Positions 4,292 to 24,037 of a stretch of DNA of 36,479 nucleotides are shown piece by piece; the first letter of the stretch is position 1; every line of letters begins with the position of its first letter. A program made the position numbers and the translations under genes. The stretch is from Nocardioidaceae bacterium (GTDB taxonomy: Bacteria; Actinomycetota; Actinomycetes; Propionibacteriales; Nocardioidaceae): assembly GCA_013695785.1 (NCBI GenBank), contig JACCZT010000095.1, positions 1 to 36,479 on the forward strand. The letters are read 5' to 3'. The notes under the pieces were generated by a model. It was given only the letters and a program-made list of their open reading frames with translations, was not told the DNA's origin and ran no database searches.

Positions 4292-4523
4292 GGGTCGATA
4301 CTAGGGCGTCCTACTATCCCCGCCAACCCGCTCGGCTCGACGTGACCTCGGACACACGGGGAAACATCTACAATAGGTCTAGACAATTCACCGGACGTCC
4401 CATAGGCTCCTCCTCAATCTAGCCAAGAGAAGCGCACCTCGATCGCCTGCAGGCGAGGGGCGACCAGCTCAAAGCACCCCACCACATCAGCAACGCGCGA
4501 TGAGTCGCGCTCGAAAGGACATC

Positions 4524-5120
4524 ATGCACACCCGAATCGCTCGACTGGCTCCTGCGCTGGTCGTACCGGCCCTGGCCGCTACCGTCGCCGTGGCCACCGC
4601 CGCTCCCGCCAATGCTGCCGGAGCCGAGGAGTTCACCGGCAGCACGGGCACCATTGTCAAGGCCATCCCCGACCAAGATGCGGTCTCACAAAAGCTCGTC
4701 GTCAAGAAGGCCGGCAAGATCAAGGACGTCAACGTCAGTTTCGCTGCCGAGCACAACGTGATCGCGGACCTTTCCTTCTTCCTGGAGTCCCCGACCGGGC
4801 GCCTCGTCCACCTGACCTCCGGCAACGGCGGCATCGGGGACGGCTACGGCAGCCAGAACGTTGACGGTTGTGGCTCGACGACGACCTTCAACGACGAGGC
4901 CGACGTCAACGTCAGGGACTTCGAAGGCGTGAACACGACGTTCTCCGGCCCCTACCAGCCCGAGTCCCGACAACTGAACCAACCGACCACGGGTCTTAGC
5001 AAGCTCGACGGAACCAAGACGAAGGGCGCCTGGAAGCTCATCGCGGCCGACACCGACGAGCTCGCCGGAGGCAAGCTGGAGTGCTTCAAGCTCAACTTCA
5101 AGTACAACCCGGCAAACTGA
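4524..5120 (+). CDS. Secreted protein with freestanding P/Homo-B (proprotein convertase P) domain
   Basis: Signal peptide MHTRIARLAPALVVPALAATVAVATAAPANAAGA; P-domain-like VKKAGKIKDVNVSFAAEHNVIADLSFFLESPTGRLVHLTS...GAWKLIAADTDELAGGKLECFKLNFKY. GAAAGGA upstream of the ATG at 4524. Confidence 0.75.
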   Translation: MHTRIARLAPALVVPALAATVAVATAAPANAAGAEEFTGSTGTIVKAIPDQDAVSQKLVVKKAGKIKDVNVSFAAEHNVIADLSFFLESPTGRLVHLTSGNGGIGDGYGSQNVDGCGSTTTFNDEADVNVRDFEGVNTTFSGPYQPESRQLNQPTTGLSKLDGTKTKGAWKLIAADTDELAGGKLECFKLNFKYNPAN

Positions 5121-5171: not shown

Positions 5172-5205
5172 TTCAGATGTCTCACTGGCGACCACCCATC
5201 GCGCG

Positions 5206-5285
5206 GCACTTCACCGAGCGCGGCGTCGCTGCACCGAGGCTGCGCCCTAGGTGCAGTGACGCCGTACCAGGAGAACCTGGTGCAG
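5206..5285 (+). repeat. ~80-bp intergenic repeat, copy A
   Basis: Gapless ~79% match (63/80) to the reverse complement of 16003-16082; shared 19-bp core GTACCAGGAGAACCTGGTG. Confidence 0.8.
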
Positions 5286-5312
5286 CTGTAACGGATGTTG
5301 CGGAGGCGGCTG

Positions 5313-5828
5313 TCAGAAGTCGCCCGCGCCGCGGCGTACCGGTTCGAGCAGGTCGAAAAGCTGGTCCAGCTCCGCGACGTCGAGCGCGTCGAACCCGAAC
5401 CGCGCAGCAGTCACGTCCGCGGTCGCGGTCTCGACCACAGCGCGGCCGGTCTCGGTGATCTGCGCGAGCACCGCCCTTCCATCAGCGGGGTGACGGCGAC
5501 GCTCGATGAAACCGCTGCCCTCCAGCCGCGCGGCGATCGAGGTGATCGACGTCGGATGCACCTGCAGACGTTCACCCATCTTGCCCAGCGGCAGGGCGCC
5601 GGTACGGCTGAAGGTCAGCAGGACCAGCGCCTCGTACCTCGCGAAGGTGAGTCCGTGTGGCTTGAGCAGGTCGTCGAGCAGCGCGATCACCAGCTGCTGG
5701 ACCCGCATCACCGAGGTCACCGCCCGCATGTGCGGCGTAGCGTCCCAGCGTTGCGCCCACTGTCGCGCCGCCTCCTCGATCGGGTCGAAGGGAAGGGGCC
5801 TAGGCACGGCCACCGCGACCGTCAGCAC
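5313..5828 (-). CDS. MarR-family transcriptional regulator
   Basis: LTFARYEALVLLTFSRTGALPLGKMGERLQVHPTSITSIAARLEGSGFIERRRHPADGRAVLAQITETGRAV; winged-helix MarR pattern. Confidence 0.9.
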   Translation of the reverse strand: MLTVAVAVPRPLPFDPIEEAARQWAQRWDATPHMRAVTSVMRVQQLVIALLDDLLKPHGLTFARYEALVLLTFSRTGALPLGKMGERLQVHPTSITSIAARLEGSGFIERRRHPADGRAVLAQITETGRAVVETATADVTAARFGFDALDVAELDQLFDLLEPVRRGAGDF

Positions 5829-15985: not shown

Positions 15986-16001
15986 AGTCACACGTGTCAC
16001 T
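15986..16001. promoter_or_regulatory. Near-palindrome upstream of the alpha/beta hydrolase
   Basis: AGTCACACGTGTCACT, 16-bp dyad with one mismatched pair, ~46 bp upstream of the GTG start at 15940. Confidence 0.35.
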
Positions 16002-16002
16002 T

Positions 16003-16082
16003 CTCCACCAGGTTCTCCTGGTACCGCGACGCTTTACCATGGTCGCAACCCTGGTGCAGTGACGCTTAGCCCGGTGAAGTGC
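16003..16082 (-). repeat. ~80-bp intergenic repeat, copy B
   Basis: Reverse complement matches 5206-5285 at 63/80 positions without gaps. Confidence 0.8.
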
Positions 16083-16119
16083 AGCGAACGATGACGGTAC
16101 GACGTACCGCGGCCACGGC

Positions 16120-22984: not shown

Positions 22985-23000
22985 CGTGAGAGGCCTCACG
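22985..23000. promoter_or_regulatory. 6-4-6 dyad between ecm and adenosyltransferase genes
   Basis: CGTGAG-AGGC-CTCACG perfect inverted repeat, abutting repeat copy 1. Confidence 0.4.
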
Positions 23001-23039
23001 CTCATACGTGGTTGATGGCGCGCCCGTACGTGGATGGTG
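22999..23039 (+). repeat. 41-bp repeat, copy 1 (contains two ~22-bp TACGTGG units)
   Basis: CGCTCATACGTGGTTGATGGCGCGCCCGTACGTGGATGGTG; 37/41 identical to the reverse complement of 23997-24037. Confidence 0.8.
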
Positions 23040-23996: not shown

Positions 23997-24037
23997 CATC
24001 AGCCACGTACGGGCGCGCCATCATCCACGTACGAGCG
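23997..24037 (-). repeat. 41-bp repeat, copy 2 (inverted relative to copy 1)
   Basis: Reverse complement CGCTCGTACGTGGATGATGGCGCGCCCGTACGTGGCTGATG. Confidence 0.8.

Follow-up and report, generated by a model that had tools for sequence, protein, structure and literature searches.

A palindromic repeat family of a Nocardioidaceae genome and its probable relation to proposed one-gene mobile elements of actinobacteria

Among the described systems, the pairing of REP/REPIN repeats with RAYT genes bears the closest likeness to the repeats reported here. Such repeats are short, palindromic and intergenic (PMC3116915, PMC2817692), and REPs are mostly found between convergent or unidirectional genes (PMC3733652). 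Further shared features are a dedicated gene flanked by the same repeats, which is seen here in relatives and not for the family of the present locus (R1), and the presence of several such genes per genome, each of them distinct. The differences lie in the gene, which here combines an AbiEi_4 winged helix (wHTH) with a DUF559-like region, and in the unit, which is 80-90 bp long and consists of a half-site, an inner palindrome and an outer hairpin. Moreover, the Y1 transposase (Y1_Tnp, PF01797) was found in none of nine genomes tested, with 5 of 14 control genomes positive, and the system is therefore not a member of the RAYT family. The CGTC-tagged REPs are likewise palindromic, and their authors report no dedicated transposase (PMC3733652); the strings "Actinobacter-" and "Nocardio-" are absent from the text of that paper.

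On the protein side, two further systems are comparable. Type IV toxin-antitoxin AbiE shares the N-terminal AbiEi_4 wHTH, the weak AbiEi_1 match in the middle and the matches to PADLOC AbiEi models, whereas the gene described here has an extra C-terminal DUF559-like motif and matched inverted ends, and stands as a single gene between those ends in two fully read units. The Vsr-like REases of the DUF559 / MTES_1575 type share a DF...EFDG..KY...RED-type motif and give weak profile matches (PMC3710099); however, these matches fall below the curated cut-offs and the N-terminal domains differ, MTES_1575 being a HEPN-transglutaminase-REase fusion (PMC3710099). No paper linking AbiEi or DUF559 to REP-like repeats was found in the open-access literature.

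The window, that is the whole stretch of 36,479 nucleotides analysed here, corresponds to contig C14 in a MAG of 2.08 Mb and 196 contigs that is 81% complete; the proteins of this MAG have their best matches in Nocardioidaceae. A first-pass annotation had reported two copies, A and B, of an 80-bp repeat in opposite orientation, and its description of them stands up to recomputation. A gapless alignment of copy A (5206-5285) with segment 16003-16082 of the opposite strand has 63 identities in 80 positions, against 22.8 +/- 4.0 for gapless registers elsewhere on that strand (z about 10); the runner-up registers reach 49 and 44 identities. The shared core GTACCAGGAGAACCTGGTG and the dyad ACCAGG-AGAA-CCTGGT are found in both copies, copy A has the 15-bp inverted repeat CGGCGTCGCTGCACC / GGTGCAGTGACGCCG, and the ORFs on either side of copy A do converge. 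The natural repeat unit is 91 bp and slightly exceeds the length first reported. In the R1 family, a half-site M1 (ACTTCWCCGGG) is followed 20 bp on by an inner palindrome, in which M1 and its inverse enclose a GTTGCAAC-like centre, and then by the outer hairpin M2 (GTACCAGG-AGAA-CCTGGTAC), which is present at both sides in some copies. In copy A, the half-site word recurs 20 bp downstream in the same orientation; in other families, too, half-site and inner palindrome carry one family-specific word. As a single strand, copy A folds into two neighbouring hairpins (-51.7 kcal/mol, z -4.35). The features of the two copies are as follows.

4500-5120, forward strand: ORF upstream of copy A (start uncertain), stopping 84 bp ahead of the unit
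5205-5295, forward strand: copy A, complete 91-bp unit (half-site, inner palindrome, outer hairpin); R1 covariance-model match of 94.9 bits and gapless alignment A1
5208-5218, forward strand: half-site M1 of copy A (ACTTCACCGAG); A1 columns 4-14
5223-5262, forward strand: inner palindrome of copy A, two inverted M1 words around a GTTGCAAC-like centre; its 15-bp arms are those first noted
5264-5283, forward strand: outer hairpin M2 of copy A, GTACCAGG-AGAA-CCTGGTGC; from alignment and folding
5313-5828, reverse strand: MarR-like regulator ORF converging on copy A, with its stop 17 bp past the unit
15993-16083, reverse strand: copy B, complete 91-bp unit; R1 match of 86.3 bits
16005-16024, reverse strand: outer hairpin M2 of copy B (GTACCAGGAGAACCTGGTGG); A1 columns 60-79
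16026-16065, reverse strand: inner palindrome of copy B; A1 columns 19-58
16070-16080, reverse strand: half-site M1 of copy B; A1 columns 4-14

Copies A and B belong to a multi-copy family. R1 occupies about 27 distinct places in its own MAG (E below 1e-3), as matched by a covariance model trained on 21 copies that came from a genome search with copy A; the near-palindromic unit makes many places appear twice among the matches. Aligned over 91 columns, the 21 copies need no gap and have a mean column identity of 81%. They are mostly intergenic, with 12 of the 20 scored lying between convergent genes, 7 between tandem genes and 1 between divergent genes. The convergent share compares with 9 of 69 background gene pairs (13%; p about 1e-6), where gene context was taken from a simple codon-based gene caller and background rates from the stretches sampled. 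The first-pass annotation had asked for this copy count and intergenic bias, and had named a lack of further copies and of conservation as evidence against its view; the opposite was found, with further copies in the own genome and related units in relatives. Its suggestion of a REP/MITE-like element is supported by the many dispersed, mostly intergenic copies, by their convergent bias and by relatives that flank a mobile-looking gene. No target-site duplication was enriched among the 21 R1 copies, which are divergent, so that old duplications could have decayed.

Among 299 Nocardioidaceae genomes, 60 (from 13 of 26 genera) have related units that the R1 model matches. Two inverted units bracket one gene in G004 and again in G090, a genome of another genus, with about 1.14 kb from unit to unit, and the interval between the ends of the two fully read units (L180, L181) holds exactly one gene. 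The product has an N-terminal AbiEi_4 winged helix (Pfam) and a conserved C-terminal motif, ESxGES...DFxW...EFDGxxKY...EKxRED...RxxWxDL. PADLOC AbiEi models match all 17 core proteins, and a Pfam scan of these 17 returned AbiEi_4 and no nuclease domain; the middle region gives a weak AbiEi_1 match. In relatives, the C-terminal region is matched by DUF559 / MTES_1575 profiles weakly and below cut-off; because of this weakness, assignment of the C-terminal domain to the Vsr-like (PD-(D/E)XK-type) nucleases is probable rather than proven. No convincing homologue of the protein was found among solved structures, and single-sequence fold prediction reached a pLDDT of only 32. The protein profile was found in 85 of 118 sampled actinobacterial-class genomes. 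Plasmid and phage collections gave no match, and no relative was found in viral contigs.

The inverted ends are associated with the AbiEi_4 gene well beyond these examples. A search of ten genomes showed inverted-orientation units on both sides of most full-length homologues. For a paired-end test, the reverse complement of the left flank of each gene was scored against its right flank, with a threshold of 36 picked after data inspection. Paired ends were present in 20 of 21 Nocardioidaceae genes (eighteen clear homologues and two more distant own-genome paralogues) at scores of 50-136, while 400 random windows of the same geometry gave a maximum of 36. Flanks of different genes compared with one another had a mean score of 25 and a maximum of 137, the high values arising because related genes share ends. 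Class-wide, 26 of 29 sampled homologues scored above 36 as against 0.75% of 800 controls; outside Nocardioidaceae, 20 of 23 passed, covering ten families, the remaining six of the 29 being Nocardioidaceae. One further homologue, met by chance in an unrelated stretch, scored 113.

The region upstream of the gene is also distinctive. Of 50 genes, 40 have the motif TGTGGA[CT], chosen after data inspection, in the 220 bp ahead of them and none has it downstream; among control windows, 4% contain it. In the Nocardioidaceae set, a DnaA-box-like GTTGTCCACAG is located near -58, and often again near -86, with nearly constant spacing to the start codon. In Mycobacterium tuberculosis and Streptomyces coelicolor, the high-affinity DnaA box has been published as TTGTCCACA (PMC4285127). 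As a hypothesis only, this DnaA-box-like site could link the element to replication.

Gene-less solo copies match the ends of genes in their own genomes. Dispersed copies in G156, G206, G150, G090, G112, G004 and part of G022 carry the gene-end sequence of the respective genome. When 18 solos were scored, 13 matched best within their own genome, one from G214 preferred G206 of the same genus, and four of the R1-like type from G022 had no partner gene ends. In the MAG itself, the AbiEi-type gene on contig C120 has dispersed relatives of its ends, one of which is a symmetric M2-palindrome-M2 solo. Different states are seen at one orthologous site, compared between species. A convergent gap adjacent to ppa contains a gene-bearing unit in G214 and a solo of the same architecture in G284 and G315. 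A search of 121 Nocardioides genomes with the joined flanks of the G214 unit (800-bp query) returned at least 17 genomes with both flanks within about 750-835 bp, and no such unit in the gaps shown. These empty, solo and full states fit insertion, with loss in other lineages as the alternative. Additionally, a gene-bearing unit is found at fba/DUF3151 in three genera (G090, G150 and G000); several gene-bearing units are shared at one site by different genomes and are thus often inherited in place.

Copies A and B are best explained, with a probability of roughly 60%, as non-autonomous, REP/MITE-like relatives of actinobacterial one-gene mobile elements. A complete element would measure about 1.1-1.3 kb and would comprise one AbiEi_4 wHTH plus DUF559/MTES_1575-like gene between inverted ends, each of 80-90 bp and with the three-part build described above. 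The end sequence would be private to each element, and the same sequence would be scattered in the genome as gene-less solos. The comparisons above show the association of ends and gene, and we infer mobility driven by the nuclease: the wHTH protein would read the element-specific word, the nuclease domain would nick or cut at or beside the hairpin ends, and copies would spread in replication or break repair, building up downstream of genes because they may do least harm there.

In the own genome, where only three homologues reach the profile cut-off (MAG 81% complete), no gene bracketed by R1-type ends came to light; 34 stretches around R1-like copies in G015, G060, G022 and G073 contained no cognate gene, and a nuclease gene is absent from the window. 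The link of copies A and B to such a gene therefore rests on architecture and analogy. The R1 family is probably old, with its gene either missing from the MAG or lost. C120-type ends were considered as its source and rejected, as their sequence differs and they have solos of their own. The whole would best be read as a REPIN/RAYT-like system with an unrelated enzyme. More tentatively, and at somewhat under even odds, the elements may constitute a widespread actinobacterial class whose sole protein is a wHTH joined to a Vsr-like PD-(D/E)XK nuclease, with element-specific palindromic ends, seeding of gene-less copies and possibly timing by the DnaA box, as an independent counterpart of REPIN/RAYT. 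If these are the enzymes of a REP-like system, the annotation of genes matching AbiEi models changes. Furthermore, one type of palindrome scattered through high-GC genomes would be explained, and a second, independent repeat-enzyme partnership would stand beside REPINs and RAYTs.

Vsr-like homing endonucleases are known in other contexts. A homing-type enzyme, which cuts unoccupied sites so that the element is copied by break repair and not by transposition, overlaps with the explanation given above, and the predicted Vsr-like nuclease as well as the recurrence of gene-bearing units at the same sites, such as fba/DUF3151 in three genera, would suit it. Strict one-site homing does not lead one to expect solos at many unrelated sites of one genome, and we consider this reading unlikely, while giving it appreciable weight.

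The AbiEi character of the protein raises another alternative, namely that the repeats are operators or landing sites of a DNA-binding protein of the AbiEi type, an orphan that would control other sites as well as its own gene, with no movement involved. The PADLOC matches of all core proteins and the family-specific word repeated within each unit agree with this, and AbiEi antitoxins are reported to bind inverted repeats in their own promoter (PMC7319586). An operator role sits poorly with ends that flank the gene on both sides, the 3' side included, with R1 copies that mostly lie downstream of genes between convergent pairs, and with an orthologous site that is full, solo-bearing or empty depending on the genome. 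It is thus judged distinctly unlikely, and the mobile-element explanation is preferred.

The hairpins and the convergent setting could also suggest bidirectional terminators or 3'-end RNA stabilisers selected between convergent genes, in keeping with the two stable hairpins of copy A and the convergent bias of the family. Several results speak against this. The window gave no Rfam match, a T-run was found near the hairpins of none of the 21 R1 copies, and terminator prediction made no call at copy A. The covariance modelling proposed in the first-pass annotation showed the 21 copies to covary no more than shuffled ones (83.5% of cells paired versus 83.9% shuffled), the palindrome arms varying independently of each other within the own genome. 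We therefore hold terminators or stabilisers to be improbable, and the RNA structure suggested earlier is unsupported for R1; some terminator-like by-product effect of the repeats may nevertheless exist. Across families, 91.1% of cells pair versus 69.0% shuffled in 30 units from many genomes (set A4, selected with a structure-aware model), and double changes number 156 versus 57 shuffled (0/500). Such covariation of the palindrome also fits shared recognition words, and the unpaired half-site switches to the palindrome's word in other families, for instance ACTTCCAATGG in G022. The paired changes would accordingly reflect a recognition word repeated in DNA and not a conserved RNA fold.

Another early suggestion, a relic of a duplicated coding end, finds no support, since the equivalent segment differs in other families while the palindrome is kept. 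The core can be read as TPYQENLVQL-stop, yet no coding sequence is common to other families there. Several copies can be read in frame as YQENLVQL-stop over the outer hairpin (window 5264-5295), which is judged coincidental because other families differ. Finally, MITEs of a conventional DDE transposase, with the AbiEi-nuclease gene as a passenger, would match short palindromic multi-copy elements and the outer hairpin on both sides of some solos, but are very improbable with no target-site duplication detected, one gene family sitting between the ends across the class and no other gene there in the two fully read units.

Apart from R1, a second repeat type is present. Own-genome paralogues on C186 and C26 have arrays of iterons on their flanks, each iteron being 20-22 bp long, with the 22-bp type flanking an MTES_1575-like (nuclease-like) gene at G000:C26. 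The C26-type iteron occurs 37 times in the own genome as against 0 for a reversed control pattern, and four of these, located by pattern search, lie in the window.

22999-23037, reverse strand: second repeat type, two 22-bp-spaced iterons of the C26 type (CATCATCCACGTACGGGCGCG)
23999-24037, forward strand: second repeat type, two more iterons in opposite orientation

Iterons of the G000:C186 type (CCTGCGGATCAAGGGGCC) are found close to several R1 copies (L009, L017, L023), which means that one intergenic gap can house repeats of different types. Other arrangements were also observed among the relatives. In L182 (G214:C7), four tandem units lie on one strand between convergent genes at 1888-2489, spaced 165-173 bp apart. 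The flanks of L195 (G112) and L205 (G206) represent a variant in which CATCCCTTGATGAA words recur at each end, apparently next to the same neighbouring gene. The gene-bearing units L203 (G214) and L197 (G206) apparently share a neighbour gene as well, and the search output shows one internal TGA in the match of L203 and one TAG in that of L197.
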